A stretch of DNA of 64,000 nucleotides, taken from positions 62,001-126,000 of the forward strand of contig NZ_VFSU01000021.1 in the NCBI RefSeq assembly GCF_006385875.1. Direction: 5' to 3'. Origin of the DNA: Sandaracinobacter neustonicus. Lineage in GTDB: Bacteria; Pseudomonadota; Alphaproteobacteria; Sphingomonadales; Sphingomonadaceae. How positions within the stretch are numbered: position 1 is the first letter of the stretch; each line of letters begins with the position of its first letter. The notes beneath the pieces were generated by a model. The model did no database searches and had not been told where the DNA came from. It saw only the letters and a program-made list of their open reading frames with translations. The position numbers were made by a program, and so were the translations under genes. Positions 2,261 to 58,545 of this stretch are shown in pieces.

Positions 2261-2790
2261 GGCGGCCCGGGCTCTGCCCGGGACCCGGCAGGGGCGTGAC
2301 GCCCCTGCACCCCCGATGTTTTTATAGCCCCTCCTCCTTTAGGGGAGGGGTTGGGGTGGGGGCTATCCGCTGGGCGCAAGGTTGGGGATTTGATTGCCTG
2401 CGGCGCTTTGGGACATGCCCCGCCCACCTCTTCCCACGTCGCCCCGGACTTGATCCGGGGCCCAGCTTTCCACCCGCAACGTTGCCGAAGAACAGCTGGA
2501 CCCCGGATCAAGTCCGGGGTGACCGTGGTGGTTGGTGGAGAGGTTGGTGGGCTTCTCAGGGGCCTTCGACAAGCTCAGGCTGAGCGGGTGGTGAGGCGGT
2601 GGTGGATCAGCCCCAGCGTCGCTCCCCTCTCTCCAACTCTCTCCCCAACGGGGAGAGAGAGCCTCCGTAGCGCCGCAGGCAATGGAATCTGATCACCCGC
2701 ACGGCGCTGGAGTTGGGCCGCGACACAAATGTTGAGGGTGCAGGGAAATCATTTCCCTGCCGGGTTCCAAGGGCAGAGCCCTTGGCCTTC
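2261..2790. repeat. Intergenic mosaic repeat, copy A (full set of modules)
   Basis: No gene is seen between the sulfatase and alr. The stretch holds, in order: a perfect 21-nt hairpin at 2288-2308 (arms GCAGGGGCGT and complement around a central G); a pyrimidine/purine-rich module (AGGGGAGGGGTTGGGGTGGG); the 15-bp end ATTGCCTGCGGCGCT; a pair of REP-like palindromes (CCCCGGACTTGATCCGGGG near 2443 and its partner near 2500); the module CCTTCGACAAGCTCAGGCTG; an AGAG-rich hairpin; the opposite 15-bp end; a 21-nt hairpin at 2740-2760 (arm GCAGGGAAAT); and a CCAAGGGC/GCCCTTGG hairpin at 2767-2785. The same modules recur at about ten other places in the window. Confidence 0.9.
2393..2683. mobile_element. 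MITE-like unit with 15-bp inverted ends, copy A (291 bp)
   Basis: The unit starts with ATTGCCTGCGGCGCT and ends with the exact inverse AGCGCCGCAGGCAAT. Inside are a pair of REP-like palindromes, the CTTCGACAAGCTCAGGCTGA module and a CTCTCC/GGAGAG hairpin. It has no coding capacity of its own. Calling it a non-autonomous element is an inference from the matching ends and the other copies at 8.1, 13.6, 17.3, 37.1, 44.8, 49.7 and 58.3 kb. Confidence 0.6.
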
Positions 2791-2876
2791 CTGACTTGCT
2801 TCCTCCCTTCATCTCATCCCCAAATCCCCCCACCCGGCTTGCGCCAACAGCCCCGATCCGCGAAAGCTACCGGGCC

Positions 2877-3911
2877 ATGCCGACCGCCCCTGCTCCCTTG
2901 CGCCTTCGGTTGAACGCCTCGGCGCTGGCGGCGAATTTCCGGGATCTGGCCACGCGGGCCGGGGTTCCGGCTTATGCGGCGGTGAAAGCGGACGCCTATG
3001 GGCTGGGCGCGCAAGAGGTTGTGCGGCGGCTGAAACCGCTGAACCCAGCCGGGTTCGCGGTGGCGACATGGCCCGAAGCGCTGGCGCTGGGCCGTGCCGA
3101 TCTGGATATGCTGATTCTGCACGGCTTCACCACCGATTGCGCGGCAGCCGCTGCGGCCCTGCCCCGCGCCCGGCCCGTTCTCGCCACCACCGCGCAGATC
3201 GCGGCGTGGGCCACCGCCTTTCCCGGCCGCATGGCAGACCTGATGGTGGAAACCGGCATGAACCGGCTGGGGATCGACCCGGCCGACATCGCCGCCGCCA
3301 TCGCCGCCATCCCCATCCACACGATCCACAGCCACCTCGCCTGCGCCGACGAGCAGGGCCACCCGCTGACGCTGCGCCAGCTGAACATCTTCCGCGCCAT
3401 CGCCGCCGCCACGCCCGCACACAGCCACGCCCTCGCCAACAGCGCCGGGATTCACTGGGGCCGCGCCTTCAGCTTCTCCGCCGTGCGCCCCGGTCTCGGC
3501 CTCTATGGCGGCCAGGCCCACCCGGACGCCACGCCCCACCATGTGGTGACACCCGAAGCCCGCATCCTGCAAATCCGCACCGTGCCCGCCGGGCAAAGCG
3601 TCGGCTATGGCGCGACATGGACAGCCCCCACAGACAGCCGCATCGCCATCCTGAACATCGGCTACGCCGACGGCATCTGCCGCGCCACCGCCCCCAAATT
3701 GCAACTGCACGCCGGGCCGCAACCAATCCCCGCCGTCGGCCTCATCTCCATGGACATGATCGCCGCCAACGTCTCCAACCTCGACCTTAGCGAAGGCGAC
3801 TGGCTCAGCCTCGACTGGCACCTCCCCACCCTCGGCCCCGCCACCGGCATCTCCCAGTACGAACTCCTCACCCGCCTCGGGCCCCGCTTCGAACGGGTGT
3901 GGGAGATATAA
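2877..3911 (+). CDS. alr: Alanine racemase
   Basis: This PLP enzyme interconverts L- and D-alanine and supplies D-Ala for peptidoglycan. The N-terminal barrel carries AAVKADAYGLG, where Lys37 would bind PLP. The C-terminal domain has SVGYGATW with the presumed second catalytic base Tyr244, then NIGYADG and the SMDMI motif. I chose the ATG at 2877 because it puts the conserved LRLRLNASAL strand right at the N-terminus. An upstream ATG at 2796 in the same frame would add 27 low-complexity residues read out of repeat DNA. The 344-residue length fits the family, if a little short. It stands alone, between two repeat-rich intergenic regions and convergent with the cysH operon. Confidence 0.93.
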   Translation: MPTAPAPLRLRLNASALAANFRDLATRAGVPAYAAVKADAYGLGAQEVVRRLKPLNPAGFAVATWPEALALGRADLDMLILHGFTTDCAAAAAALPRARPVLATTAQIAAWATAFPGRMADLMVETGMNRLGIDPADIAAAIAAIPIHTIHSHLACADEQGHPLTLRQLNIFRAIAAATPAHSHALANSAGIHWGRAFSFSAVRPGLGLYGGQAHPDATPHHVVTPEARILQIRTVPAGQSVGYGATWTAPTDSRIAILNIGYADGICRATAPKLQLHAGPQPIPAVGLISMDMIAANVSNLDLSEGDWLSLDWHLPTLGPATGISQYELLTRLGPRFERVWEI

Positions 3912-3912
3912 G

Positions 3913-4098
3913 GCAGGGGCTCTGCCCCTGCACCCCGGCAGGAGGGTGACCCTCCTGCACCTCCATAAGTTTTGGGAAGAGGCCCCCGTGAAGCAACATG
4001 CGGGCCAAACCGTTCTGTGACGGGGGCCTCTTCCCAAAACTTCGGGGGTCAAGGGGCGTCACGCCCCTTGTGGGGGTGCAGGGGGCAAAGCCCCCTGC
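3913..4098. repeat. Cluster of 19-21-nt perfect hairpins between alr and cysH
   Basis: Four short palindromes are packed between two convergent genes: 3913-3931 (GCAGGGGC, loop TCT), 3938-3958 (arm GCAGGAGGGT, central G), 4050-4070 (arm CAAGGGGCGT, central C) and 4078-4098 (GCAGGGGGC, loop AAA). All keep the same size and an outer GC-rich clamp while the inner stem differs. They surround a longer inverted repeat annotated separately. Confidence 0.85.
3967..4042. terminator. Long inverted repeat, possible bidirectional terminator
   Basis: Two 23-base arms, 3967-3989 and 4020-4042, are perfect inverse copies separated by 30 bases. The arm begins AAGTTTTGGGAAGAGG. It lies midway between alr and the end of the cysH operon, so transcripts from both sides would fold it. 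The A/T pairs at the base leave a short T-run on each strand, but it is not a classical short-loop terminator. The function is inferred. Confidence 0.5.
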
Positions 4099-4108
4099 CT
4101 TACGTCTC

Positions 4109-4852
4109 TCAGAACACCGGTTCGTGGTCGGCGTCCGGGGCTTTGTGGATTCCGCATTCGGATTTGTCCCAGCCGCGCCAGCGGCCTGCGCGCGGGTCTT
4201 CGCCGGGTTGCACGCGGGAGGTGCAGGGGGAGCAACCGATGGATGGGTATCCGTCTGCGACGAGGGGGTGTGGCGGCAGCTGGTGGGTGGCGGCGTAGTC
4301 GCGCAGCTTGTCGTTGGTCCAGTCGTGCAGCGGGTTCAGTTTCAGCCGTTTGTCCTGTGTTTCGAACAGGCTGAGCTGGGCGCGGGCGCGGTTCTGATGC
4401 GATTTCCGGCCGGAGACCCAGAGGTTGAATGGTTGCAGGCCGCGATCGAGCGGTTCGACTTTGCGGATTTCGCAGCAGCCGTCGGGGTCGTAGGACCAGC
4501 GCAGGCGCTTCGGGTCTTTCGCGTCCAGCGTGGCCTGATCCGGGTGCAGCCAGCGCACGTCTGAGAGGCGCAGGTGGGCGGAGAGGTCTTCGGCGTAGCG
4601 CAGGGTTTCCGGGAACAGCCAGCCGGTTTCCACGAACAGCACCGGCACGTCGCGGCGGATTTGCGAGACCATGTGCAGCAGCACCGCCGATTCGGCCCCG
4701 AAGGAGGACACGACGGCGACATCGCCGAAGGCCGGGTCCGTCAGGGCGTCGGCCAGCGCGCGGGCACTGTCCGCGCCATAGCGGGCGGAGAGGGCCGGAG
4801 CGTCTGCCGCGTGCCACAGGGGGCTTTCGGGGATTTGCGCGGCGAGGCTCAT
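4109..4852 (-). CDS. cysH: Assimilatory APS/PAPS reductase (iron-sulfur APS-reductase type)
   Basis: This enzyme reduces activated sulfate to sulfite in assimilatory sulfate reduction. Visible motifs are VVSSFGAESAVLLH (nucleotide binding), VLFVETGWLFPETL, and the C-terminal ECGIHK with catalytic Cys233. In addition there is a Cys126-Cys127 pair (DGCCEIRK) and Cys207-x-x-Cys210 (GCSPCT). Those two pairs ligate a [4Fe-4S] cluster in APS reductases and are absent from E. coli-type PAPS reductase, so adenylylsulfate is the likely substrate. The ATG at 4852 overlaps the stop of the DUF934 gene in an ATGA junction; a longer open frame upstream is only read-through into that gene. It is the last gene of the cobA-DUF2849-cysI-DUF934-cysH operon. 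Length 247 aa is normal. Confidence 0.92.
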   Translation of the reverse strand: MSLAAQIPESPLWHAADAPALSARYGADSARALADALTDPAFGDVAVVSSFGAESAVLLHMVSQIRRDVPVLFVETGWLFPETLRYAEDLSAHLRLSDVRWLHPDQATLDAKDPKRLRWSYDPDGCCEIRKVEPLDRGLQPFNLWVSGRKSHQNRARAQLSLFETQDKRLKLNPLHDWTNDKLRDYAATHQLPPHPLVADGYPSIGCSPCTSRVQPGEDPRAGRWRGWDKSECGIHKAPDADHEPVF

Positions 4853-5247
4853 TCGGGCTTGTCCGCCGGGTGGCGCAGCGCCCATGCCGGTTGCGCTGCG
4901 TCTGTTGCGCGCTGATAGACGTAGGGGAAGCGCGCCAGCGTGGCAGCGGCGACTTGCACGTTCACCGGCCGTTCGGGCGCGAGCGACGAGAAGCCGGAGC
5001 GCTTGAGGGCGATCAGCTGATCCACCGTCAGGTCTCCGATGGCGCGGATATCGCCGGTGAAGCCCTGTTCGCGCAGGATGCGGGCCGACGAATAGCCCCG
5101 GCCGTCGCGCCATTTCGGGAAGCTGAGGCCGATCACCTTGTGGTTGCCGAGCCCCGCGTGGGTGCGGACATCGTCTTCCGGGGCCAGCACCACATCGGGT
5201 TCGGCGGCCAGAAGGGCGCGCTCGTCGATGGCGAAGAGATCAACCAT
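4849..5247 (-). CDS. DUF934 family protein of the sulfite-reduction operon
   Basis: A 132-residue soluble protein with the family's conserved core, LGNHKVIGLSFPKWRDGRGYSSARILRE, in which the FPKW-DGR-YS residues are the recognisable part. DUF934 proteins are almost always encoded between cysI and cysH in proteobacteria. They are thought to assist sulfite reduction, but no biochemical activity is established. The gene overlaps the cysI stop by eight bases at its start and the cysH start by four at its end, so all three are translationally coupled. No signal peptide or membrane segment is visible. Confidence 0.88.
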   Translation of the reverse strand: MVDLFAIDERALLAAEPDVVLAPEDDVRTHAGLGNHKVIGLSFPKWRDGRGYSSARILREQGFTGDIRAIGDLTVDQLIALKRSGFSSLAPERPVNVQVAAATLARFPYVYQRATDAAQPAWALRHPADKPE

Positions 5248-6868
5248 AGACCGCCTCCTTGAAGGGGGCGACGCCGATGCGGCGATAGGTGTCGAGGAAG
5301 CGCTCGCCGGGTTCGCGGCGGCTGAGATAGGCGTTGGTCAGCTTCTCAACTGCGTCTGCGACACCGTTTTCATCGAAGCCGGGGCCGATGATCTGGCCAA
5401 GGCTGGTGTCTTCCGCGCCGGAGCCGCCGAGCAGGAGCTGGTAATTTTCCACCCCCTTCCGGTCCACGCCGAGGATGCCGATGTGCCCGGCATGGTGGTG
5501 GCCGCAGGCGTTGATGCAGCCGGAAATCTTGATCTTCAGCTCGCCGAGCTCCGCCTGCTTCGGCGCGAGCCGCTGCGCGATATCCTGCGCCACCGGGATG
5601 GAGCGGGCGTTGGCGAGGTTGCAATAATCAAGCCCGGGGCAGGCGATGATATCGGTTGCGAGATCGAGGTTGGCGTCCGCCAGCCCGATGCGGCGCAGCT
5701 CTTCCCACACCGCCTTCAGGTCGGTTTTGCGCACATGCGGCAGCACGAGGTTCTGCGCATGCGTCACGCGGATATCGTCGAGGCTGTAGCGCTCGGCGAG
5801 GTCGGCGATGGCCTCCATCTGCTCGGCGGAGGCGTCTCCGGCGATACCCTCCACCGGCTTCAGCGAGATGTTGGCGATGGCGTAGCCCGGCGCCTTGTGC
5901 GGGGCGACCTGCTGCTTCACCCACAAGGCGAAATCGGGATCGGAGAGGTCGATCTCGTCCGACAGGCCGGTTTCGAAGGCGGGTGGGGCGAAGAAGGCGC
6001 GGATGCGCTCCACCTCGGCCTGCGGCGCGTCGATGCCCAGCGTTTTCACATGCAGATGTTCGGCTTCCACCTGCCGCGTGAATTCGGCAGCGCCCAGCTC
6101 ACTCACCAGAATCTTGATGCGCGCCTTGTAGATATTATCCCGCCGCCCATAGCGGTTGTAGACGCGCAGGATGGCCTCGCAGTAGCCGAGATAATCGCTG
6201 AGCGGCAGGAATTCGCGGATCACCGGCGCGATGATCGGCGTGCGGCCCATGCCGCCGCCCACATAGACGCGGAAGCCCGCTTCGCCCGCGTCGTTCCGCA
6301 CCAGTTGCAGGCCGATATCGTGCAGCTTCATCGCCGCGCGGTCCGTTTCGGTGGCGATGATGGCGATCTTGAACTTGCGCGGCAGATAGCTGAATTCCGG
6401 GTGGAAGCTGGACCATTGCCGCAGCAGTTCCGCCCAGATGCGCGGATCGTCCACCTCCCCGGCAGCGGCACCGGCATATTGATCCGAACTGATGTTGCGG
6501 ATGCAGTTGCCGCTGGTCTGGATGGCGTGCATCTCCACCGTGGCGAGGTCGGCGAGGATGTCTGGCGCTTCCTCCAGCCGAATCCAGTTGTACTGGATGT
6601 TCTGCCGGGTGGTGAAATGGCCATAGCCCTTGTCATACCGCCGCGCGACATGCCCCAGCATCCGCATTTGCGCGGACGACAGCGTGCCATAGGGAATCGC
6701 CACCCGCAGCATATAGGCGTGCAACTGCAGATAGAGGCCGTTCATCAGCCTGAGCGGCTTGAAATGATCCTCGTCCAGCTCGCCGGACAAGCGGCGCTGC
6801 ACCTGATCGCGGAATTCGTCGACGCGCGCGTCGACGACCGCCTGATCGATCTCGTCATAACGATACAT
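5240..6868 (-). CDS. cysI: Sulfite (nitrite) reductase hemoprotein
   Basis: This siroheme and [4Fe-4S] enzyme reduces sulfite to sulfide by six electrons. The four cluster cysteines are visible as Cys410 and Cys416 (ACPGLDYC) and Cys451 and Cys455 (SGCINACGHH). The ferredoxin-like half-domain motif HFTTRQNIQYNWI and the conserved TSGNCIRNISSDQYAG lie in the N-terminal half. At 542 residues it is a single-subunit type, and no flavoprotein cysJ is nearby, so electrons may come from ferredoxin; that is inference. Context favours sulfite over nitrite, because it sits between cobA, which makes the siroheme precursor, and DUF934-cysH. The upstream DUF2849 gene ends immediately before its ATG. Confidence 0.93.
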   Translation of the reverse strand: MYRYDEIDQAVVDARVDEFRDQVQRRLSGELDEDHFKPLRLMNGLYLQLHAYMLRVAIPYGTLSSAQMRMLGHVARRYDKGYGHFTTRQNIQYNWIRLEEAPDILADLATVEMHAIQTSGNCIRNISSDQYAGAAAGEVDDPRIWAELLRQWSSFHPEFSYLPRKFKIAIIATETDRAAMKLHDIGLQLVRNDAGEAGFRVYVGGGMGRTPIIAPVIREFLPLSDYLGYCEAILRVYNRYGRRDNIYKARIKILVSELGAAEFTRQVEAEHLHVKTLGIDAPQAEVERIRAFFAPPAFETGLSDEIDLSDPDFALWVKQQVAPHKAPGYAIANISLKPVEGIAGDASAEQMEAIADLAERYSLDDIRVTHAQNLVLPHVRKTDLKAVWEELRRIGLADANLDLATDIIACPGLDYCNLANARSIPVAQDIAQRLAPKQAELGELKIKISGCINACGHHHAGHIGILGVDRKGVENYQLLLGGSGAEDTSLGQIIGPGFDENGVADAVEKLTNAYLSRREPGERFLDTYRRIGVAPFKEAVYG

Positions 6869-7920: not shown

Positions 7921-8029
7921 GCCGCCGCTGATGCGCGCGTTGCACGCATCCCGCCAGATGCGAAATCTTGGGGAGGGACAAAAATCGCTATTGCGGCTGG
8001 GTTTGGGTGGGGTGGGGTTGTGTTGCCTC

Positions 8030-8400
8030 CGGCGGCCAAGGCCTTTGCCCTTGGAACCCAGCAGGGAAATGATTTCCCTGCACCCTCAATATTGGCGTTG
8101 CGGCTTATCTCAAGCGACGTTTGTGTGATCAGATTCGATTGCCTGCGGCGCTACAAAGCCCTCTCCCCCTGCAAGGGGGAGAGATGGAGAGGGGGTGTTA
8201 CCGTCGGGCCTGATCCGCAACGGTTAAACTCGCAAAGCGAAAGCGCCGCAGGCAATAAACTCCACCCGCGCGCCCGCAACGCCCCCGCCCAACAGTCGCT
8301 ATAAAAACATCGGGGGGTGCAGGGGCGTCACGCCCCTGCCGGGTCCCGGGCAGAGCCCGGGCCGCCGGAGGCCCCCAACCCCAACGCCCACACCACACCC
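8030..8400. repeat. Intergenic mosaic repeat, copy C (short form)
   Basis: The 554 bases between cobA and the divergent penicillin-binding protein gene contain no convincing ORF. They hold a CCAAGGCCTTTGCCCTTGG-like hairpin near 8036-8055, a 21-nt hairpin at 8061-8081 (arm GCAGGGAAAT), a short MITE-like unit, a 21-nt hairpin at 8319-8339 (arm GCAGGGGCGT) and a CCCGGGCAGAGCCCGGG hairpin just after it. Compared with copy A, the flanking modules are inverted in order and strand, and the REP-like pair is missing. Confidence 0.85.
8138..8256. mobile_element. MITE-like unit, copy C (119 bp)
   Basis: Perfect ends ATTGCCTGCGGCGCT (8138-8152) and AGCGCCGCAGGCAAT (8242-8256) bracket a short interior with a CTCCCCCTGCAAGGGGGAG hairpin. 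The interior lacks the REP-like pair and the CTTCGACAAGC module present in copy A. Confidence 0.6.
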
Positions 8401-8474: not shown

Positions 8475-10973
8475 ATGGATGCCGTCACCCCAGAGGCTGA
8501 CGCCCCCGTTCCCGGCCTGTTTGCCAAGGCCCGGGCGATGGTGGGGCGGGTGCCCCGGAAAGCCCTGATCGCTCTTGGTGTGTTGTTCGCGCTGGGGGTG
8601 GCAGGGCTGTTGCTGTTGTGGCTGCTGGTGGGGCGTGGGCTGCCGGATGCGGCCAGCCTTGCCAATTATCAGGCGCCGTTGCCCACCACCCTGCGCAGCA
8701 CCGATGGCGCGCCGTTCCACAGTTTCACGCGGGAGAGGCGGGTTTATCTGCCTTATTCCGAGATTCCGCCCGCCGTGGTGCATGCGGTGATCTCGGCGGA
8801 GGATAAAACTTTCTTCAGCCACTCCGGTCTCGATTACGCCGGGATCCTGACTGCGGTGATCACCAACATCGAGTCACTGGCGAGTGACAAGCGCCCGGTG
8901 GGGGCCTCCACCATCACCCAGCAGCTGGCGAAGAACCTGCTGCTCACCAACGAAGTCACCATCGGCCGCAAGCTGCGTGAGGCGATTCTGGCCAAGCGGA
9001 TCGAAAGCCAGTTCACCAAGGAGCAGATCCTTGAGCTGTATCTGAACGAAGTGTTTCTCGGCCGGAATGCCTATGGGGTGGAAGCAGCCTCGCAAAGCTG
9101 GTTCGGCAAGCCGGCGGCCGAACTTCGGCCCGAGGAAGCGGCGTTTCTGGCCGGGCTGCTGAAGGCCCCGTCCAACTATAACCCGCGCACCAACTACCAG
9201 CGCGCGCTGGAGCGGCGGAATTATGTGCTGGGCGAGATGGCCAACAACGGCTTTATCTCCCAGCAGCAGGCGGTGGTGCTGAAGGCGTCGCCCATCGTCA
9301 CCACCACAGGCGGGGTGGCGAACCGGCAGTCTGCCATTGGCGGCTATTTCATCGAGGAAGTCCGCCGCCAGCTGATCGACAAGTTCGGCGAGGATGCCGA
9401 ATCCGGGCCGAACAGCGTCTATGCGGGCGGGCTCTGGGTGCGCACCACCATCGATCCGGTGATTCAGGCGGCTGCCGAAAAGGCGCTTCGCAGCGGCCTG
9501 CTGCGCTATGATGCCGGGCGCGGCTGGCGCGGGCCTGCCGCCAGCATCGATCCGGGCGAGGGCTGGGAAAACCGCCTGCGCGCCGCGCCGGTGGGCGCGG
9601 GCGTGCCGGAATGGAAGATCGCTGTGGTGCTGGGCAAGGATGGCGCTGGCATGACGCTGGGCTTTGCCGATGGCTCCAAGGGTCGGCTGGCCAACGGCGA
9701 CGCGATGCGGGCGCGCAACGGTGCGCCCGCATGGCAGCAATTGAAGGCAGGGGATGTGATCCCCGTCGCGCAGATTGCGGGCAGCAGCTATGGCTTGCGG
9801 CAGATTCCCGAAGTGTCCGGCGCGATGGTGGTGCAGGATCCGCAGACCGGCCGGGTGCTGGCGATGGTGGGCGGCTTCGACGTGAAGGGCTCCAGCTTCA
9901 ACCGGGCGACGCAGGCGATGCGGCAGCCGGGGTCCAGCTTCAAGCCGTTCGTCTATGCGGCGGGGCTGGACAATGGGATGACGCCCGCCTCCATCGTCTC
10001 TGATGCGCCCTATTGCGTCTATCAGTCGCGCAGCCTTGGCACCAAATGCTTCCGCAACTTCTCCGGCGGCTATGCCGGGGCGCAGACGATGCGCTGGGGG
10101 CTGGAGCAATCCCGCAACCTGATGACGATCCGCATCGCCTATAACAGCGGTATGGACAATGTGGTGAAGCTGGCGAAGGATCTGGGCATCGGCGATTACC
10201 AGCCGGTGCTGGCAATTGCGCTGGGCGCGGGCGAAACCACGCCGATGCGACTGGTGAACGCCTATTCCATGCTGTTGAACAACGGCAAGGCGGTGGAGCC
10301 GGTGCTGTTCGATCTGGTGCAGGATAGAAACGGTAAGGTGCTTTATCGCGCCGATCCAAGGCCGTGCGAGAATTGCAATGCCGCCAACTGGCAGGGGCAG
10401 GCCATGCCCCGCCCGCGCGACACCCGGCGGCAGGTGATGGACGCCCGCACCGCCTATCAGACGACGCACATGATGGAGGGCGTGGTGCAGCGCGGCACGG
10501 CGGCCGTGCTTCGCTCTCTGGATGTGCCCATCGCCGGGAAAACCGGCACTACCACCGGGCCGAAGGATGTCTGGTTCGTGGGCGGCACGCCGACGATCGT
10601 GGCGGGCCTCTATATCGGCCATGACAAGCCCCGGAATCTGGGCGGGCTGCAGGGCGGCACCTTCGCCGCGCCGATCTGGAAGCAATTCTATACAGAGGCG
10701 TTCAAGGACAATCCGCAGGAGCCCATGCCCTTCCTCGCCCCGGCAGGTGTGCGCATGGTGCGGATCGACCGCCGCTCCGGCCGCCGCGTCTATGGCGCAT
10801 GGCCGTCCGCCGATCCGAAATCGGCGGTGATCTGGGAAGCCTTCAAGGCCGAGAGCGAACCGCGCCGCATCTATCGCACCGCCGATGATCTGAAGGCGCT
10901 GCAACCCGCCACCCCCAAGGCAAGGGTGAAATCCGACAGCGACTTCCTGCGCCAGCAGGGCGGCATCTATTGA
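8475..10973 (+). CDS. Class A penicillin-binding protein (transglycosylase/transpeptidase)
   Basis: A bifunctional peptidoglycan synthase anchored in the inner membrane. After a short cytoplasmic tail, a membrane anchor spans roughly residues 34-53 (ALGVLFALGVAGLLLLWLLV). The GT51 domain follows with the catalytic Glu109 in SAEDKTFFSHSGLD and the GASTITQQLAKN motif. The transpeptidase domain has SSFK (nucleophile Ser487, Lys490), the SRN motif and KTG at 689-691. An OB-like insert (residues ~340-440) marks the PBP1a subgroup. The 832-residue length is typical. The stop overlaps the TTG start of the next gene. mrcA/ponA would be the usual name, but I leave it open between the 1a and 1c branches. 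Confidence 0.93.
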   Translation: MDAVTPEADAPVPGLFAKARAMVGRVPRKALIALGVLFALGVAGLLLLWLLVGRGLPDAASLANYQAPLPTTLRSTDGAPFHSFTRERRVYLPYSEIPPAVVHAVISAEDKTFFSHSGLDYAGILTAVITNIESLASDKRPVGASTITQQLAKNLLLTNEVTIGRKLREAILAKRIESQFTKEQILELYLNEVFLGRNAYGVEAASQSWFGKPAAELRPEEAAFLAGLLKAPSNYNPRTNYQRALERRNYVLGEMANNGFISQQQAVVLKASPIVTTTGGVANRQSAIGGYFIEEVRRQLIDKFGEDAESGPNSVYAGGLWVRTTIDPVIQAAAEKALRSGLLRYDAGRGWRGPAASIDPGEGWENRLRAAPVGAGVPEWKIAVVLGKDGAGMTLGFADGSKGRLANGDAMRARNGAPAWQQLKAGDVIPVAQIAGSSYGLRQIPEVSGAMVVQDPQTGRVLAMVGGFDVKGSSFNRATQAMRQPGSSFKPFVYAAGLDNGMTPASIVSDAPYCVYQSRSLGTKCFRNFSGGYAGAQTMRWGLEQSRNLMTIRIAYNSGMDNVVKLAKDLGIGDYQPVLAIALGAGETTPMRLVNAYSMLLNNGKAVEPVLFDLVQDRNGKVLYRADPRPCENCNAANWQGQAMPRPRDTRRQVMDARTAYQTTHMMEGVVQRGTAAVLRSLDVPIAGKTGTTTGPKDVWFVGGTPTIVAGLYIGHDKPRNLGGLQGGTFAAPIWKQFYTEAFKDNPQEPMPFLAPAGVRMVRIDRRSGRRVYGAWPSADPKSAVIWEAFKAESEPRRIYRTADDLKALQPATPKARVKSDSDFLRQQGGIY

Positions 10974-12325
10974 GCACGGACGACCGCGCCTTCCTCGGCC
11001 ACCCCAAGGGGCTGGGCTATCTCTCGTTCACCGAGGCGTTCGAGCGCTTTTCCTATTATGGGATGCAGGCGCTGCTCGTGCTCTACATGGTGAAATATCT
11101 GCTGCTGCCCGGCAATTTCGAGCGGGTGTGGCTGCTGAAGCCGCTGCAATCGCTGTTGGGCGGGCTGGAAGGCCAGCCGCTGGCGAGCGCCATCTTCGGG
11201 CTTTACGCCAGCCTCGTCTATCTCACGCCGATTGCAGGTGGGATGATCGCAGACCGCTGGCTGGGCAAGCGGCTGACGGTGCTGGCGGGTGCGATCACAA
11301 TGGCGGTCGGCCATTTTCTGATGGCGTTCGAACCGGCCTTTCTGCTGGCGCAGCTGTGCCTGATCGTGGGCACCGGGCTGTTCAAAGGCAATATCGCCAG
11401 CCAGGTGGGGGCGCTCTATGGACCGGAGGACAACCGCCGGGCGGACGCGTTCCAGATCTTCTATCTGGGCATCAACGCAGGCGTGATCGCCGCGCCGCTG
11501 ATCGTGGGCACGCTGGGGGAAACCAAGGGCTGGCACTGGGGCTTTGGCGCGGCGGGCATCGGCATGGTGATCGGGCTGGCCATCTATGTGGCCGGGCAAA
11601 AGTATCTCGGCCCGGAACCGGCGCGGGTGAAGGGCGCGGCGCGGCCGAAGCTGACGCCCACGGAATGGCGGCAGACGCTGGGGCTGCTGATGCTGATCCC
11701 GGTGCTGGCGATTGCGGTGGTGCCCAACCAGCAGATTTTCAACGCCTATCTGCTGTGGGGCGATGGCGCCTTCGATCTGCAGTTCCGGGGCACGCAACTG
11801 CCCACCACATGGCTGATCACGCTGGACGCCATCGTCTCCGTCTCGTTTCTGGCCGGGGTGGCGCTGTTCTGGCGCTGGTGGGCCATCAACCACAAAGAGC
11901 CGGACGAAGTTGGCAAGCTGCTGATCGGCAGCCTGTTCAGCTTCGCAGGGATGATGGCGCTGGTGGCCGCCGCCGTGCAGGGCGAAAGCGGGAAGATCGG
12001 GCTGGCGCTGCCGGTGCTGTTCCATGTGCTGAACTCCATCGGCTTTGCGCATATGATGCCCGTATCGCTGGCGCTGTTCGCGCGGCGCGCACCCGCCAGC
12101 CTGAATTCCACGGTGATCGGGCTTTATTATCTGTGCCTTGTGGGCGGCAACGCGCTGGTCGGCTGGATCGGCGGCCTGTTCTCCACCATGTCGCCCGTCT
12201 CCTTCTGGCTGATGCACGCGGGCTTTGCCGTGGTGGGCGGCGTGGGCTTCCTCTTGTTCCGCCTGCTGGTGTGGAACCGCGGCGGCGCAGGAAAAGGCTT
12301 GCCCGAAGCCATCCCTGCCCCCTAA
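10970..12325 (+). CDS. POT-family proton-coupled oligopeptide transporter
   Basis: A major-facilitator inner-membrane protein that imports di- and tripeptides with protons. The N-terminal signature FTEAFERFSYYGMQALLVLYM includes the ExxER proton-coupling motif of the family. A second family stretch, IFYLGINAGVIAAPLIVGTLGE, is also clear. About 12 hydrophobic segments are spread over 451 residues. The start is taken as TTG at 10970, overlapping the upstream TGA by four bases, because no later in-frame ATG would preserve the signature. The coupling to a cell-wall synthase gene hints at recycling of wall peptides, which is only inference. Confidence 0.9.
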   Translation: MSTDDRAFLGHPKGLGYLSFTEAFERFSYYGMQALLVLYMVKYLLLPGNFERVWLLKPLQSLLGGLEGQPLASAIFGLYASLVYLTPIAGGMIADRWLGKRLTVLAGAITMAVGHFLMAFEPAFLLAQLCLIVGTGLFKGNIASQVGALYGPEDNRRADAFQIFYLGINAGVIAAPLIVGTLGETKGWHWGFGAAGIGMVIGLAIYVAGQKYLGPEPARVKGAARPKLTPTEWRQTLGLLMLIPVLAIAVVPNQQIFNAYLLWGDGAFDLQFRGTQLPTTWLITLDAIVSVSFLAGVALFWRWWAINHKEPDEVGKLLIGSLFSFAGMMALVAAAVQGESGKIGLALPVLFHVLNSIGFAHMMPVSLALFARRAPASLNSTVIGLYYLCLVGGNALVGWIGGLFSTMSPVSFWLMHAGFAVVGGVGFLLFRLLVWNRGGAGKGLPEAIPAP

Positions 12326-12337
12326 ACGCCCCCCATC

Positions 12338-13466
12338 ATGCGTGCAGAAGCCCAGAATTACGTCGACAAAATCGAGCAGGCGCTTGCCCTGCTGAGGAGG
12401 TTTCTTTGACTGGGATCGCGCCCTTCAGAAACTCGATCAGCTAAACCACCGCGCAGAGGATCCCACGCTGTGGAACGATCCCCGCGCCGCGCAGGAATTG
12501 ATGCGCGAACGCCGCAAGCTGGATGAAGCGATCACCGCCACGAAGAAGATCGAATCGGAACTGCGGGGAACCGTGGAGCTGATCGAGCTTGCCGAAATGG
12601 AAGGCGATGAGGCTCTGGCGGACGAAGGGGTGAAAGCCCTGTCAGAGCTCGCCGAGAAGGCCGAGCATGACAAGGTGGAGGCGCTGCTCTCCGGAGAGGC
12701 GGACGGCCTGTCTGCCTTCATCGAAATCAACTCCGGCGCGGGCGGCACCGAAAGCCAGGACTGGGCCGAGATGTTGCAGCGCATGTATATGCGCTGGGGC
12801 GAGCGGCGCGGCTTCAAGGTGGAGCTGATCGACTATAACGCGGGCGAACAGGCCGGGATCAAATCCGCCACCATGCTGCTGAAAGGCGAAGGCGCGTTCG
12901 GCTGGGCCAAGACGGAATCGGGCGTGCACAGGCTCGTGCGGATCAGCCCCTATGATTCCTCGGCGCGGCGGCACACCAGCTTCTCCAGCGTCTGGGTCTA
13001 TCCCGAAATCGACGATTCGATCGAGATCGAGATCAAGGAATCCGATTGCCGGATCGACACCTACCGGGCCTCCGGCGCGGGCGGGCAGCATATCAACACC
13101 ACCGATTCGGCGGTGCGGATCACCCACCTGCCCAGCGGCATCGTGGTGGCCTGCCAGACGGAGCGGTCGCAGCACAAGAACCGTGCCACCGCGTGGAAGA
13201 TGCTGCGCGCGCGCCTCTACGAAGCCGAACTGCAACGCCGCGAGGCGGAAGCGAACGCGGTGAACGCCACCAAGTCCGACATCGGCTGGGGCCACCAGAT
13301 TCGCTCCTACGTGCTGCAACCCTATCAGCTGGTGAAAGACCTGCGCACCGGGGTGACGAGCACCTCCCCCGGAGACGTGCTGGACGGCGCGCTGGACCCG
13401 TTCATGGCCGCCGCGCTGAGCCAGCGGGTTACGGGGGAAAAGGCTGACGTCGAAGATGTCGATTAA
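12338..13466 (+). CDS. prfB: Peptide chain release factor 2, with programmed +1 frameshift
   Basis: RF2 recognises UGA and UAA stops and triggers peptide release. The reading frame is split: codons 1-23 run from 12338 to an in-frame TGA at 12407-12409, and the rest continues in the +1 frame from 12408, giving about 375 residues. The shift site AGGAGGTTTCTTTGAC has the internal Shine-Dalgarno-like AGGAGG and the slippery CTT-TGA-C of classical prfB autoregulation. The GGQ loop ([19 protein letters not shown]) and the stop-recognition loop, here SPYDS where E. coli has SPFDS, are intact. An ORF caller that ignores the shift would start at 12498 and lose about 53 residues. The gene begins 12 bases after the POT transporter stop. 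Confidence 0.96.
12389..12410 (+). promoter_or_regulatory. prfB programmed +1 frameshift site
   Basis: The Shine-Dalgarno-like AGGAGG (12395-12400) lies three bases before CTT-TGA-C (12404-12410). When RF2 is scarce the ribosome slips forward one base at the TGA and completes RF2; when it is plentiful, translation ends. This is the known autoregulatory mechanism, seen here directly in the sequence. Confidence 0.95.
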
Positions 13467-13496
13467 GGGCGCTGGCGGTTTTTTTGCCTCCGGCGG

Positions 13497-13690
13497 GCAG
13501 GGAAATGATTTCCCTGCACCCTCTAAATTGGCGTTGTGCTCTCGCCCCACACACGCGCGCGTGGCGGAGTTTGATTGCCTGCGGCGCTGGGGCTTGCTCG
13601 CGCCGCAGGCAATAACCTCCTCTCTCAGCCCGACCTCCGATTGGGAACCCAATATCGAGGGTGCAGGGAAATCATTTCCCTACCAGGGGA
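13497..13690. repeat. Intergenic mosaic repeat, copy D (minimal form)
   Basis: This 263-base gap between prfB and scpB contains two copies of the GCAGGGAAAT hairpin in opposite orientation (13497-13517, and 13662-13682 with one end base changed). Between them is the shortest MITE-like unit in the window. A GGGGGCGGCGCCCCC hairpin lies near 13696-13710, just before scpB. Confidence 0.85.
13574..13613. mobile_element. Minimal MITE-like unit, copy D (40 bp)
   Basis: ATTGCCTGCGGCGC and its inverse GCGCCGCAGGCAAT are separated by only about a dozen bases, so the two ends form a nearly continuous hairpin. It shows that the ends alone can be maintained, or that this is a deletion derivative. Confidence 0.6.
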
Positions 13691-13729
13691 GTTTGAGGGG
13701 GCGGCGCCCCCTCAATTCAGGTCGCCCCA

Positions 13730-17169: not shown

Positions 17170-17234
17170 TGCTCCCGCCGCCGGATGGCGGCAAACGCGG
17201 GACTGTTGGCGGACGGCGGCTCGCATAGACTGAG

Positions 17235-17660
17235 GGGGCTCTGCCCCCTCAACCCCCGGCAGGAAGCCGTGCTCCCTGCACCCACATGAGTAGGTTAATC
17301 GTTGAGGTTGTGCTGGCGGGGGAGTGATTGCCTGCGGCGCTAGTTGGGGATTGTTCCACCCACGTCTTCACACGTCACCCCGGATCAAGTCCGGTGTGAC
17401 GGTTGTGGGGGTTGGGAGGGTGTTGGGTTTGTTCAGGGGCCTTCGACAAGCTCAGGCTGAGCGGGTTGAGAGGTTGGGGGGGCGGGGAGGTTGGTGGGTC
17501 ATACCTAGCGTTGCTCCCCCTCTCTCCAACGGGGGGAGAGAGAGTCTTCGTAGCACCGCAGGTATTTAAAGTGGATCGCCCGCACCGCGCTGGAATTCAG
17601 GCGCGACGCAAAGTTAGAGGGTACAGGGAAATCATTTCCCTGCCCGCCGGAGGCAAAACC
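17235..17660. repeat. Intergenic mosaic repeat, copy E
   Basis: The 573 bases between gabD and the peptidase gene contain no convincing gene. Modules present: a GGGGGCTCTGCCCCC hairpin (~17234-17249); a 21-nt hairpin at 17259-17279 with one mismatch (arm GCAGGAAGC); a MITE-like unit with one REP-like palindrome (CCCCGGATCAAGTCCGG near 17379) and the CTTCGACAAGCTCAGGCTGA module; and a 21-nt hairpin at 17622-17642 with one end base changed. The right half shows more base changes than copies A, H and I. Confidence 0.85.
17327..17566. mobile_element. MITE-like unit, copy E (240 bp, decayed right end)
   Basis: The left end is the exact ATTGCCTGCGGCGCT; the right end reads AGCACCGCAGGTATT, with two or three substitutions. 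The interior has a single REP-like palindrome instead of the usual pair. Confidence 0.5.
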
Positions 17661-27965: not shown

Positions 27966-28160
27966 CGTCACCCCGGATCAAGTCCGGGGTGACGAGTGGA
28001 GGGGTGGGTGGGACACTCCGTCCCAAAGCGCCGCAGGCAATAAGTTCCAGCCTCGCGCCAGGCGGATGGCCCCCACCCCAACCCCTCCCCTGACAGGGAG
28101 GGGCTAAGTAAAAAGTCCGGGGGTGCAGGGGCGTCACGCCCCTGCCGGGGTGAAGGGGAG
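27966..28160. repeat. Intergenic mosaic repeat, copy F (inverted half)
   Basis: After prsR there is a REP-like palindrome at 27966-27993 (GTCACCCCGG and inverse), one MITE end (AGCGCCGCAGGCAAT, 28027-28041) with no partner, the CCCCACCCCAACCCCTCCCC module, and a 21-nt hairpin at 28125-28145 (arm GCAGGGGCGT). The order is the reverse complement of the left half of copy A, so this is a one-sided, inverted copy. A REP-like palindrome so close to the prsR stop may also act as terminator. Confidence 0.8.
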
Positions 28161-28194
28161 GAGCCCCTTCGAAAACCTCTCCGCTCGCGAAAGG

Positions 28195-36973: not shown

Positions 36974-36994
36974 CGGGGCGGTGGGTTGGCCTCC

Positions 36995-37335
36995 GGCGGC
37001 CCGGGCTCTGCCCGGGACCCGGCAGGGGCGTGACGCCCCTGCACCCCCTGAGTTTTTCTGAGCCCCTCCCCTGCAGGGGAGGGGTTGGGGTGGGGGCCAT
37101 CCGCTTGGCGCGAGGTTCGAGGTGATGGCCTGCGGCGCTTTGGAGCCTGTCCCACCCACCACCCCACCCGTCACCCCGGATCAGGCCCGGCGTTGCTCCC
37201 CTCTCTCCAACTCTCTCCCCAGCGGGGAGAGAGAGCCACGTGGCGCCGCAGGCAACCGAAGCGGATCACTCACACGGCGTTGGAGTTGGGGCGCGACGTG
37301 AATTTTGAGGGTGCAGGGAAATCATTTCCCTGCCC
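36995..37335. repeat. Intergenic mosaic repeat, copy G
   Basis: The 487 bases before the M20 peptidase gene hold the CCGGGCTCTGCCCGG hairpin (~37003-37018), a 21-nt hairpin at 37022-37042 (arm GCAGGGGCGT), the AGGGGAGGGGTTGGGGTGGG module, a MITE-like unit in which the REP-like pair is fused and shortened, and a 21-nt hairpin at 37313-37333 (arm GCAGGGAAAT). A CCAAGGGCAAAGCCC remnant follows. No gene is seen here. Confidence 0.88.
37125..37256. mobile_element. MITE-like unit, copy G (132 bp)
   Basis: Ends ATGGCCTGCGGCGCT and GGCGCCGCAGGCAAC, each with one or two changes from the common 15-bp end. The interior keeps one truncated REP-like arm (CACCCCGGATCAGGCCCGG) joined directly to the CTCTCC/GGAGAG hairpin, as if the middle had been deleted. 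Confidence 0.55.
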
Positions 37336-37460
37336 GCGCGGCGCGCAAAAAAAGCCCAAGGCCGGGTTCCAAGGGCAAAGCCCCGCCCGCCGGAGCCCCC
37401 ACACCGCCCCAAAAAATCCCACCTTGTATCCCCCGCCCCGCACGTGCAGGTTCTTGGGCC

Positions 37461-44703: not shown

Positions 44704-45140
44704 AGCGCCTAGGGGAGGGGTTGAGGTGGGGGCCATCCGCTGGGCACCAGGGTGAGGTTATTGCCTGCGGCGCTTTGGGGCTGCCCACCGACCTCTTCGC
44801 ACGTCACCCCGGACTTGATCCGGGGTCGAGCTTTCTTCTCCAGCGTTGCCGAAGAACAGCTGGACCCCGGATCAAGTCCGGGGCGACGGGTGTGGTTGGT
44901 GGGGAGGTTGGTGGGTTTCTCAGGGGCCTTCGACAGGCTCAGGCTGAGCGGGTCGTGGGGGTAGCGGATCAGGCCCGGCGTTGCTCCCCTCTCTCCACCT
45001 CTCTCCAGCGGGGAGACAGAGCCTCCGTAGCGCCGCAGGCAATCGAATCCTGATCACACCCACGGCGCTGAAGTTCAGGCACAACGCAAAGTTAGAGGGT
45101 GCAGGGAAATCATTTCCCTGCCCGCCGGAGGCAAAAACCT
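44704..45140. repeat. Intergenic mosaic repeat, copy H
   Basis: Directly after the IS remnant the mosaic begins abruptly inside the AGGGGAGGGGTTGAGGTGGG module, without the preceding hairpin, so the insertion or a deletion removed its left part. Then come a MITE-like unit with the full pair of REP-like palindromes (~44805 and ~44865), the CTTCGACAGGCTCAGGCTGA module and the AGAG hairpin, and a 21-nt hairpin at 45101-45121 (arm GCAGGGAAAT). No gene is seen before the DUF4167 stop. Confidence 0.88.
44760..45043. mobile_element. MITE-like unit, copy H (284 bp)
   Basis: Perfect ends ATTGCCTGCGGCGCT and AGCGCCGCAGGCAAT. The interior is nearly collinear with copy A, including both REP-like palindromes and the spacer GTTGCCGAAGAACAGCTGG. 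Confidence 0.62.
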
Positions 45141-49533: not shown

Positions 49534-49577
49534 ACGAAGGGGTTCGAGAACGAAGGGGTTCGAGAACGAAGGGGTTC
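49534..49577. repeat. 16-bp tandem repeat upstream of hisS
   Basis: The unit ACGAAGGGGTTCGAGA is repeated 2.75 times without a mismatch at a strict 16-base period. The last partial unit leads into GAAGGGGttccaCCCCTTC, a small hairpin. It lies about 55-100 bases before the hisS start codon, in its 5' leader or promoter. Confidence 0.9.
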
Positions 49578-49589
49578 CACCCCTTCACC

Positions 49590-50085
49590 GCGGCAGGGGC
49601 GTGACGCCGCTCGCACCCCCTTAGTTTTTAGCCCCTCCCCTGCAGGGGAGGGGTTGGGGTGGGGGCCATCCGCTTGGCGTGAGGTTGAGAGTTATTGCCT
49701 GCGGCGGTTTATGTCGGGGCCTGCGCCACCCACCTCCCCCCACGTCACCCCGGACTTGATCCGGGGTCCAGCTTGTTCTTCTCCAACGTTGCGGGTGAAA
49801 AGCTGGACCCCGGATTAAGTCCGGGGTGACGGTTGCGGATGTGGAGAGGGTGGTGGGTATCTCAGGGGCCTTCGACAAGCTCAGGCTGAGCGGGTTGAGA
49901 GATTTGTGGATCAGGCCAACCGGTGACACCCCCTCTCCATCTCTCCCCCTTGCAGGGGGAGAGTGCTTCGTTGCGCCGCAGGCAATCGAATCTGATCACT
50001 CACACGGTATTTGAGTTTTGACACGACGCCAATTTTGAGGGTGCAGGGACATCATGTCCCTGCCCGCCGGAGGCAAAAAACCCGA
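49590..50085. repeat. Intergenic mosaic repeat, copy I
   Basis: The 656 bases between hisS and the next coding gene carry a 21-nt hairpin whose right arm has decayed (49593-49613), the CCCCTCCCCTGCAGGGGAGGGG hairpin, a MITE-like unit with both REP-like palindromes (~49747 and ~49806), the CTTCGACAAGC module, a CTCCCCCTTGCAGGGGGAG hairpin and a 21-nt hairpin at 50043-50063. In that last hairpin both arms have changed together: the arm is GCAGGGACAT instead of GCAGGGAAAT, and the opposite arm matches the change. No gene is seen. Confidence 0.9.
49694..49986. mobile_element. MITE-like unit, copy I (293 bp)
   Basis: Ends ATTGCCTGCGGCGGT and TGCGCCGCAGGCAAT, matching the common end with one or two changes at the inner side. 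Interior order equals that of copies A and H, except that the right hairpin contains a CTTGCAGGG loop as in copies C and J. Confidence 0.6.
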
Positions 50086-52522: not shown

Positions 52523-52549
52523 TGACCTATTTCGAACCCACATAATGGC

Positions 52550-54556: not shown

Positions 54557-54647
54557 CGGGTTCGTCGGACAAGCCCTCCGCCCCGCCGTCCGGGCCCGCG
54601 GCGAGTCGAGAGTTTGCGCTTTGCGCAAATCTTCGCCGCCTTCGGCC

Positions 54648-54681: not shown

Positions 54682-54738
54682 GTTGGTTCCTTGGGGAGGA
54701 AATCATGGGCTGCGCCGGTTCACCCGGCGTCGCCGAAC

Positions 54739-56169: not shown

Positions 56170-56231
56170 ATGAGACCCCTCCTTGAACAGGCCGGGCTTG
56201 CTGCCCGCCTTGAATATCGAGCCCGGCCGCA

Positions 56232-56570: not shown

Positions 56571-56630
56571 AGCTGCCGAACCCCCTCTTTCTGACTGGCG
56601 AACGCAAATGCGCCCGCAGCAGGGGTCCCA

Positions 56631-56646
56631 TGCACATCCCGTGCCA
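56631..56646 (-). promoter_or_regulatory. Sigma-54-type promoter of glnK-amtB
   Basis: On the minus strand the sequence TGGCACGGGATGTGCA matches the sigma-54 consensus TGGCACG-N4-TTGCA at all but one position, with the invariant GG and GC at correct spacing. The expected start of transcription is ~56619, about 48 bases before the glnK ATG. Upstream, near 56665-56685, GCATTGGGTGC could be half of an NtrC enhancer site, which is a weak call. Confidence 0.8.
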
Positions 56647-56739
56647 AGTGATTGTCACATTGAGTCGCACCCAATGCAGACTTTCAATTGCCCAAAATCG
56701 CGGCAAGCCGCTCCGGGCAAATTGCCTGATGCCTGATTT

Positions 56740-58149
56740 TCAGGCAGTTCCGCCGACGGTGAGCCCTTCTACCAACAAAGTCGGCTGCCCCACGCCCGCA
56801 GGCACCGATTGCCCGCCCTTGCCGCAGGTGCCGATGCCTTCGTCCAGCGCCATGTCGTTGCCGATGGCCGCGATCTTCTGCATCACCTCCGGGCCATTGC
56901 CGATCAGCGTTGCGCCTTTCACCGGCGCGCCGATTTTCCCATCCTCCACCAGATAGGCCTCGGTGCAGCTGAACACGAATTTGCCGGAGACGATATCCAC
57001 CTGCCCGCCGCCGAAGCTTTTGGCATACAGACCCTTCTTCACGCTTCGCAGGATTTCGCCGGGGTCTTCGGACCCCGCCGCCATGAAGGTGTTGGTCATG
57101 CGCGGCATCGGCGGATGGCGGAAGCTTTCCCGCCGCCCGTTGCCCGTCGCCGCCACGCCCATCAGCCGGGCGTTCATGCGATCCTGCATGTAACCGCGCA
57201 GATAACCGTCCTCGATCAGCACCGTGCGCTCGGTGGGCGTGCCTTCATCGTCCACGCTCAGCGAACCGCGCCGGTCCGGCAGGGTGCCGTCGTCGATCAC
57301 CGTCACGCCGGGGCTGGCAACCCGTTCGCCCACGCGGCCGGAAAAGGCCGAACTGCCCTTGCGGTTGAAATCGCCTTCCAGCCCATGGCCCACCGCCTCA
57401 TGCAGCAGGATTCCGGGCCAGCCCGGCCCCAGCACCACCGGCATCACGCCAGCCGGCGCGGGCACGCTCTCCAGATTGGTCAGCGCCTGCGCCAGCGCGA
57501 GGTCGATCGCGCGTTCCCATTCGCCTTCCTGAAACAGCCGGTCATACAGCTGCCGCCCGCCAAAGCCCCAGCTGCCGGATTCGCGCCGCCCGTCCTTCTC
57601 GGCGACGATCCCCACATTCAGCCGCACCAGCGGCCGCACATCCTTCACCCGCACGCCATCGGCGCGGATGATCTCCACATGGCTCCAGCTGGCCGCGAGG
57701 CTCGCCGTCACCTGCGCCACGCGCGGGTCTTTCGCGCGCGCCACCGCGTCGATCCGCTCCAGCAGCTTCACCTTCTCCGCAAACGGCACCGCCGATAACG
57801 GATCGGCATCGGTATACAGCCGCCGATTGGTGCCGCGCGGCGCATCCGCTGCGGCGACGCCACCATGGCCGGACTTCACCACCGCCACCGTCTCCGCCGC
57901 GCGCCGGATCGCCGCCGCCGAAATCTCGTTCGCATGGGCATAGGCGCTCACCTCGCCCACCACGCCGCGCAAGCCGAAGCCCCGGCTCTGATCGAAACTC
58001 GCCGACTTCAGCCGCCCGTCGTCAAACGCGAAACTCTCGGACGTGGCGACCTGCAGATACAGCTCGCCATCCTCCATCCCGTCGAGCGCCTGCTTCGTCA
58101 GGCGCTCAGCCTCGTGCGGATCGAGTTCGGTGTAGAGAAGCGTGTCCAT
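56740..58149 (-). CDS. tldD: Metalloprotease TldD
   Basis: TldD with TldE/PmbA degrades or matures small peptides in the cytoplasm. The zinc-binding HEAVGHGLEGD (HExxxH type) and the conserved GSSAFSGRVGERVASPGVTVIDDGTLPDRRGS stretch are clear, followed by YMQDRMNARLMGVAATGNGRRESFRHPPMPRMTNTF. At 469 residues it is full length. The ATG at 58149 is used; the frame continues upstream through repeat DNA. pmbA is not in the window. The 170 bases between its stop and glnK hold the glnK promoter. Confidence 0.95.
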   Translation of the reverse strand: MDTLLYTELDPHEAERLTKQALDGMEDGELYLQVATSESFAFDDGRLKSASFDQSRGFGLRGVVGEVSAYAHANEISAAAIRRAAETVAVVKSGHGGVAAADAPRGTNRRLYTDADPLSAVPFAEKVKLLERIDAVARAKDPRVAQVTASLAASWSHVEIIRADGVRVKDVRPLVRLNVGIVAEKDGRRESGSWGFGGRQLYDRLFQEGEWERAIDLALAQALTNLESVPAPAGVMPVVLGPGWPGILLHEAVGHGLEGDFNRKGSSAFSGRVGERVASPGVTVIDDGTLPDRRGSLSVDDEGTPTERTVLIEDGYLRGYMQDRMNARLMGVAATGNGRRESFRHPPMPRMTNTFMAAGSEDPGEILRSVKKGLYAKSFGGGQVDIVSGKFVFSCTEAYLVEDGKIGAPVKGATLIGNGPEVMQKIAAIGNDMALDEGIGTCGKGGQSVPAGVGQPTLLVEGLTVGGTA

Positions 58150-58204
58150 GGGGCGGAGATAGGGGGTTCGGGGGGAAAGGCCAATGGGGGTGGTGGGGCT
58201 GACG

Positions 58205-58545
58205 TTGGAGGCCTCCGGCGGCCCAGGCTCTGCCCGGGACCCGGCAGGGGCGTGACGCCGCTCGCACCCCCTTAGTTTTTCTGAGCCCCTCTCCTTCAGG
58301 GGAGGGGTTGGGGTGGGGGCCATCGGCTTGGCGCTAGGTTGGGGGTTTATGGCCTGCGGCGCTTTTTGTTGTGCGTGTTTTGCCGTTGTGGATCAGGCCC
58401 GGCGGTGACACCCCCTCTCGTACTCTCCCCCTTGCAGGGGGAGAGGGCTGCGGTGCGCCGCAGGCAATCGAAGTGGATCACGCGCGCGGCGCTGGAGTTT
58501 GGGCACGACGTAAATTTTGAGGGTGCAGGGAAATCATTTCCTTGG
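58205..58545. repeat. Intergenic mosaic repeat, copy J
   Basis: Upstream of tldD lie a CCCAGGCTCTGCCCGGG hairpin, a 21-nt hairpin with the same decayed right arm as copy I (58244-58265), the AGGGGAGGGGTTGGGGTGGG module, a short MITE-like unit, a 21-nt hairpin with three changed end bases (58525-58545) and a CCAAGGGC/GCCCTTGG hairpin. No gene is seen. Confidence 0.88.
58349..58468. mobile_element. MITE-like unit, copy J (120 bp)
   Basis: Ends ATGGCCTGCGGCGCT and TGCGCCGCAGGCAAT. The interior matches copy C: a CTCCCCCTTGCAGGGGGAG hairpin but no REP-like pair. Confidence 0.55.

Follow-up and report, generated by a model that had tools for sequence, protein, structure and literature searches.

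Repetitive extragenic palindromic (REP) sequences and similar repeats are usually regarded as small parasites or as 3'-end structures. Two other known kinds of element are mobile insertion cassettes (MICs), in which inverted ends that belong to an insertion sequence surround passenger genes without a transposase, and the Rhizobium intergenic mosaic elements (RIMEs), which are mosaic palindromic intergenic repeats of alphaproteobacteria. The repeats treated here were found between genes in a 64,000-nucleotide stretch (the window; 66% G+C) of contig NZ_VFSU01000021.1, part of the 3.65-Mb draft genome of Sandaracinobacter neustonicus (G000). They form composites of ~530 nt within a frame of inverted hairpins and, by general description, resemble RIMEs in being mosaic, palindromic, intergenic and alphaproteobacterial. 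The copies probably constitute a lineage-specific family of non-autonomous, hairpin-framed mobile cassettes that lodge just downstream of stop codons, for the most part between convergent genes, and whose frame acts as a portal for content. As in a MIC, inverted ends surround passenger genes in some copies, with no transposase recognised inside, but no insertion sequence supplying such ends was found for these frames. This family did not appear among the papers listed for the literature searched.

The family is real, amounts to more than a REP mosaic, and can be filed near the REP mosaics and two systems known as neisserial intergenic mosaic elements (NIMEs) and minimal mobile elements (MMEs). 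In the sections of the source drawn on here, NIMEs, composed of dRS3 plus repeat sequence (RS) units, are likewise arrays of short intergenic palindromes linked to chromosomal rearrangement, and MMEs are regions, flanked by two conserved genes, that hold different whole-gene cassettes from strain to strain (PMC3898611). Compared by description, the present elements differ from both in that an inverted two-hairpin frame bounds each unit, with genes inside, and in belonging to an unrelated genus. The dRS3 repeat corresponds to a CGTC-1 REP, and the CGTC REPs of sphingomonads lie near the 3' ends of convergent genes, mostly <20 bp away in Sphingomonas wittichii, with no dedicated transposase according to the sections of that study used here (PMC3733652). 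The N module of the composites resembles these REPs: it is a short, intergenic palindrome with many copies, mostly in inverted dimers, and a CGTC tag can be read by eye in ACGTCACCCCGG. Unlike REPs and bacterial interspersed mosaic elements (BIMEs), however, the REP dimer is here the innermost content of a larger framed unit. REP doublets forming hairpins (REPINs) are also inverted palindrome doublets that fold and spread extragenically within one genome, as the consulted part of their description has it (PMC3116915). The composites are larger and nested, carry genes in some copies, and coexist with no REP-associated tyrosine transposase (RAYT) found in G000.

Ungapped repeat finding, reading of all ten gaps and a module scan were applied to the window. 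A reading of the sequence alone had described about ten gaps with one series of modules in fixed order, had concluded that whole composites move or recombine as units, and had placed the modules outside coding sequence. The repeated intergenic series is confirmed. A composite, whole or partial, occupies eight of the ten gaps (A, C and E to J); D has only the frame with M M', and B holds a related four-hairpin element whose end hairpins are of the kind seen in the composites. The outer frame consists of two hairpins (c, H), often with the GC-rich cap GCCTCCGGCGG, and recurs inverted at the other end; in many pairs the symmetry by eye continues outside the cap (TTTT/cap...cap'/AAAA). H is the 21-nt hairpin already noticed (GCAGGG, nine free bases, CCCTGC, then ACCC), and the module of CCCCACCCC type forms a G-rich hairpin (K/G). 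The layout is concentric, with the inverted pair M...M' inside the frame and REP dimers in the centre, so that the last modules mirror the first: T c H M, then N N' P Q, then M' H' c' T'. Copy C, described as partly inverted, is a short form lying wholly in opposite orientation according to the module scan, and F, called half-inverted, is a truncated half composite, also in opposite orientation.

The comparison used five sister-species genomes (G001-G005), ~70-85% identical to G000 in matched DNA; the best named relatives, judged on one window gene, are Sandaracinobacteroides hominis and Sandaracinobacteroides sayramensis. In all, 82 frame pairs were read (53 in G000, 13 in G001, 15 in G002 and one in G003), of which seven are element B. 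The order of modules holds in the module scan of the composites but is not universal. Among 53 frame pairs of <1 kb in G000, N lies within M...M' in 30, M M' stands alone in 11, and a P' P dimer takes the inner position in four; P' P dimers are also found alone. In G002, the N dimer stands beside M M' in eight of nine frames. The feature common to the species is the frame, and the hairpin frame, holding strings of REPs in some copies and genes in others, is the better unit of description.

At orthologous gaps, none of the relatives compared has the composite found in the window at A, C, D or F; the sequence-only reading had proposed presence/absence of this kind, in close strains, as proof of mobility. 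Gap A measures 677 nt in the window, against 83 nt in G003 and 68 nt in G001 between matched coding ends, with no element. No element was found at gap C in G001-G005. At gap D, the DNA matches in G001, G003 and G004 stand 12-32 nt apart with no element between them, and in G002 the gap contains a G-rich hairpin. Gap F is ~30 nt in Sandaracinobacteroides hominis and contains an N-type dimer in Sandaracinobacteroides sayramensis.

Two sites carry different contents in different species. Between dnaA and thrS, where gene families were identified in G003 and orthology rests on DNA match, four species are framed: the frame encloses a GFA gene in G000, a GNAT gene in G003, M N N' M' in G002 and another repeat in G001, these being differences between species, not strains. 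The c stems at this site differ between species. A DUF2189 gene adjoins the frame in G001 and, by eye, is also present in G004; dnaA and thrS lie on different contigs in G004 and G005, where the inspected flanks lack a frame. The second site (G001 L130:8290-9670) contains a ligase gene in G001, a short composite in G000 and M M' N' in G002, and in G003 and G004 the gaps between matched coding ends are 62 and 44 nt. By eye, the cap, degenerate in G001, starts 42-45 nt past a common CATGG in G000, G001 and G002. The simplest reading is a single old insertion whose content was exchanged.

Composites also bound a rearrangement. In stretch L015 of G000, the genes matching L130 6193-11889 of G001 form a block inverted with respect to the arrangement common to G001, G003 and G004, and the inverted block ends at oppositely oriented composites (5180-5644, plus; 10745-11180, minus). 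The G001 gene adjoining the right end of the block (11893-12345) matches another G000 contig, so more than one event is needed.

Clear gene cargo was present in seven of the 82 frame pairs. Besides the GFA and GNAT genes, G001 frames enclose an IrrE/HTH set, ParDE, a 2'-5' RNA ligase family protein, and proteins of 110 and 260 aa, the last two without a Pfam or NCBIfam family. An eighth case (L137) encodes a relative of the 260-aa protein (34% identity), with an interrupted right end. Eleven cargo genes are judged foreign, their third-position G+C content (GC3) of 0.33-0.71 lying at least ~3 standard deviations under host means of 0.825 (G000), 0.838 (G001) and 0.864 (G003), host sets biased by the high-GC3 training of the in-house gene finder. 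The IrrE/HTH set, together with a DUF2188 gene named from the plasmid annotation, matches a Sphingomonas insulae plasmid (79.4%, query 301-1544 of 1923) that lacks the frames. On this plasmid (L212:1-5022), the IrrE/HTH/DUF2188 genes adjoin a TIR-domain gene, near a Pycsar effector gene, which suggests a defence region as the source of the cargo. Two further candidates were set aside: cupin and dapE genes between frames in L131 have host-like GC3, and a ParE gene at L132:15442-16983 was left uncounted as the right frame end was judged a false match.

The repeats are abundant and concentrated in G000. Exact matches to the H pattern, a few of which are c-type hairpins of the same pattern, number 256 in G000, 46 in G001, 77 in G002 and 21 in G003, with none for the reversed control; the N core CCGGATCAAGTCCGG has 152 matches in G000 and none in its control. 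Further counts come from 36 stretches of G000 (664 kb, 17% called non-coding by a simple finder trained on high-GC3 frames), many of them picked for holding N or H; G000 sequence read in total came to 0.85 of 3.65 Mb. In stretches many of which were likewise picked for N or H, the modules are linked, N lying ≤650 bp from H in 93 of 105 cases, M in 152 of 182 and P in 44 of 61. In the 36 stretches, their exclusion from coding DNA stands for H (130/134 non-coding), G (44/44), N (87/88), P (51/52) and Q (52/52). It does not extend to the shorter or looser patterns, which also fall within coding DNA (T 90/177, M 19/150, q 20/89, L 10/45 and R 9/54). A profile search of these 36 stretches returned 108 non-overlapping matches that merge into 86 units, 49 of them spanning both ends; nine copies share a short form without consensus positions ~153-318.

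Beyond the sister species, the distribution is narrow. Among 396 Sphingomonadales, the T-c pattern is multi-copy only in G000 (111 matches) and the genus g21 (3-21 matches in five of six genomes), with single matches in five others, and the two-hairpin frame pattern has 159 matches in G000 and none in the other 384 Alphaproteobacteria sampled; G001-G005 stand outside both samples. In g21 (L150-L161), the frame is simpler, one hairpin with the same cap and a purine-rich outer flank; once it is a bare 41-nt palindrome. Matches of the composite to plasmids, in the 12 of 16 records listed, cover only query 166-284, the N region, and a search of Rfam returned a tRNA as its sole match.

The location of the composites is strongly biased. 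They occupy 65 gaps of the 36 stretches, representing 40 of 80 convergent, 22 of 352 tandem and 3 of 78 divergent gene pairs (convergent against all others, 25/430: odds ratio 16, p=1.5e-20). Stems vary from copy to copy yet remain paired. In the G000 stretches read, all three inner pairs of H form in 134 of 138 matches, comprising seven stems (shuffle mean 48.9, maximum 63), compared with 30 of 39 in G001 (mean 17.6, maximum 22) and 24 of 24 in G002 (mean 10.0, maximum 18), counts made without a pairing filter. The matches are copies of few types: G000 has 15 distinct ones, 11 of them fully paired. In 17 hand-picked variants, 96.1% of cells pair and 24 double changes occur against 7.4 in shuffles, a test that leans towards structure as the variants came from a pairing-filtered set. 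Shape thus appears to be the conserved property of the hairpins, in DNA or RNA; correction of palindromes by template switching would leave the stems looking the same. The two H hairpins of one unit are alike in 1 of 52 G000 pairs (14.2 expected) and in 1 of 9 G002 pairs (3.3 expected), and G001 shows no bias (5 of 10, 4.9 expected). The unlike ends in G000 may reflect a founder effect; the c hairpins show no excess of matching ends within a unit.

Several results weigh against a family of mobile cassettes. Identity among the 49 end-to-end copies averages 77%, with 94.1% for the most alike pair, indicating that the copies are old, and how far a copy has diverged at its left end shows no correlation with its right end (Mantel r=0.005, p=0.43). 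At 36 framed pairs, direct repeats in the flanks (k=3-6, 8, 9) are not in excess, so the target duplication expected of a miniature inverted-repeat transposable element (MITE) moved by a DDE insertion sequence was not found; copies this old could have lost it. No transposase was recognised in the frame pairs examined. Exact junctions are unreadable because the sister species are only ~70-85% identical, different contents are seen at only two orthologous sites, where repeated insertion at a hot spot is a possible alternative, and the gene cassettes of L128, L129 and L133 have no demonstrated empty site in relatives. For L128, the neighbours of its TerC site differ between species. Changed pairs (4 vs 3.0) and pair types (8 vs 8.3) among the 17 H variants do not exceed shuffles, and the covariation term of element B in the alignment fold (+0.33) gives no net support. 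The earlier proposal of composites that keep their order and move as units is therefore only partly supported: movement of whole composites was not seen, neighbouring blocks are weakly correlated at best (Mantel r ~0.2, p=0.016-0.06), and this weak or absent co-inheritance speaks against unit copying. Shared order and spacers speak for a structure inherited from a common ancestor and not for units that moved recently.

Pure nested insertion, in which each repeat family entered the centre of an older palindrome and no unit moved, is the alternative to be taken most seriously, although it falls somewhat short of an even chance. It accounts for the concentric order, for the presence of N N', P' P, P or nothing within M M', for N outside M M' in G002, for the weak linkage of blocks and for P dimers standing alone, and REP dimers inside longer palindromes are described in the sections of PMC3733652 used here. 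Yet the long L and R spacers recur at many sites and nine copies share one short form, and independent insertions would not yield common spacers. A doubtful reading takes different complete cassettes to have inserted independently at common hot spots, with no exchange within a standing frame; it draws on the strong 3'-end preference and the unlike c stems at the dnaA site, but the position of the cap past the shared CATGG in three genomes fits one old insertion better than independent ones.

Selection for 3'-end function, as bidirectional terminators or mRNA-stabilising elements that spread slowly by gene conversion, with the framed genes accidental, would explain why a composite lies in half of the sampled convergent pairs, why stems compensate, why element B prefers convergent genes near stop codons, and why g21 frames in several cases abut the stop codons of convergent genes on both sides. 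This reading is rather unlikely, however. T-runs, where present, stand before and not after the outer hairpin, sister-species gaps lack the element, three composite gaps are divergent, the framed genes are of unusual composition with different content at the same site, and REPs elsewhere have the same location bias (PMC3733652, in the sections used). The hairpin ends, inverted doublets, stop-codon neighbourhood and missing target duplications would also suit a RAYT/REPIN system, the ends being REPs moved by a tyrosine transposase of IS200/IS605 type. REPINs are accompanied by a RAYT (PF01797) in the same genome, and the family is absent (E up to 0.1) from G000 and from 10 of the 12 genomes searched (nine with H or multi-copy T-c patterns, G004 and G005 with element B, and G361 with no T-c match); G001 and G025 have matches. 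A lost or very divergent enzyme is possible, but such a system is improbable.

Hairpin-framed cassettes with a frame open to changing content remain the preferred reading, and its strongest new points are the framed foreign-looking genes and the different contents at one site; its weakest is mechanism. Under it, nested insertion into palindromes would have produced the concentric order, and a single cargo, REP dimers and hairpins in series, would have been amplified in G000, which is why the order looks fixed there. A frame, once placed, would serve as a portal for contents that vary by species, including foreign-looking low-GC genes, perhaps through homologous recombination between frames. 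The ends may be read as folded single strands, because shape and not sequence is kept, and the original copying may have depended on a trans-acting enzyme, perhaps since lost; no autonomous copy with the same ends occurs among the 82 frame pairs read. Oppositely oriented copies could permit inversions. A bolder version, offered tentatively, is a chromosome-wide cassette system in which shape-recognised hairpin ports stay in place, contents are exchanged, ports steer inversions and the fixed-order mosaic is the default filling; captured foreign genes such as toxin-antitoxin pairs would then be exchangeable content. Palindromic repeats here bound larger units, some with foreign-looking genes and with content differing by species at the same site, and one family thereby connects REP mosaics with gene capture and rearrangement. 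The dnaA/thrS and second sites provide concrete loci for exchange of content, and the compensating stems suggest folded-strand recognition without a known transposase.

Table 1. Elements in the ten gaps of the window, parts of composite A, and two framed genes of G001 (window positions unless a stretch is named)
Feature	Position	Strand	Modules or context
Composite A, long form	2255..2787	+	T H G L M N N' P q Q Q' M' R H'
A, T	2255-2265
A, c hairpin	2266-2282
A, H hairpin	2288-2308
A, M	2393-2406
A, N pair	~2441-2521
A, M'	2670-2683
A, H'	2740-2760
Element B, four-hairpin palindrome	3912..4098	no strand	convergent genes; without middle modules
Composite C, short form, both ends	8025..8372	-	between divergent genes; whole unit opposite
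D, frame plus M M' only	13486..13716	+	between prfB and scpB
Composite E, one N, without left T	17230..17654	+	H M N' P q Q Q' R H' T'
F, truncated half (N to H')	27968..28170	-	between convergent genes
Composite G, without N N' P	36989..37345	+	T H K K' G L M q Q Q' M' R H' T'
Composite H, left end lost	44709..45132	+	G L M N N' P q Q Q' M' R H' T'
Composite I, long form	49568..50083	+	K K' G L M T N N' P q M' R H' T'
Composite J, short form	58211..58583	+	between divergent genes; T K K' G L M q M' R T'
G001 protein, related to the next	L129:14233-15015		own framed region; no Pfam/NCBIfam family
G001 protein, related to the preceding	L137:10875-11522		own framed region; no Pfam/NCBIfam family

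Element B, ~190 nt with four hairpins, also occurs in G002, G004, G005 and elsewhere in G000; besides the window, L110:8591-8785 and L170-L180 contain it. Twelve copies from five species were aligned. Of the 12 copies for which both neighbours are known, 11 stand between convergent genes, close to stop codons. In G003, the gap that corresponds to B contains a copy whose stem changes compensate one another, so the element may have been inherited at this site. Double changes affect 12 of 55 predicted pairs, and in the predicted fold the first hairpin pairs with the last, instead of forming four separate hairpins.

Two observations made by eye concern the insides of frames. The framed region L128:13643-15583 contains AT-rich DNA, repeated GAATTCCGGGGACAG motifs and an apparent transposase fragment, and is apparently nested mobile DNA. 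At L137:11500-11620 and L128:13640-13720, in mirrored positions, a CGTC-type REP seems to stand in place of half an H stem, giving these sites the look of REPs inserting into hairpins.

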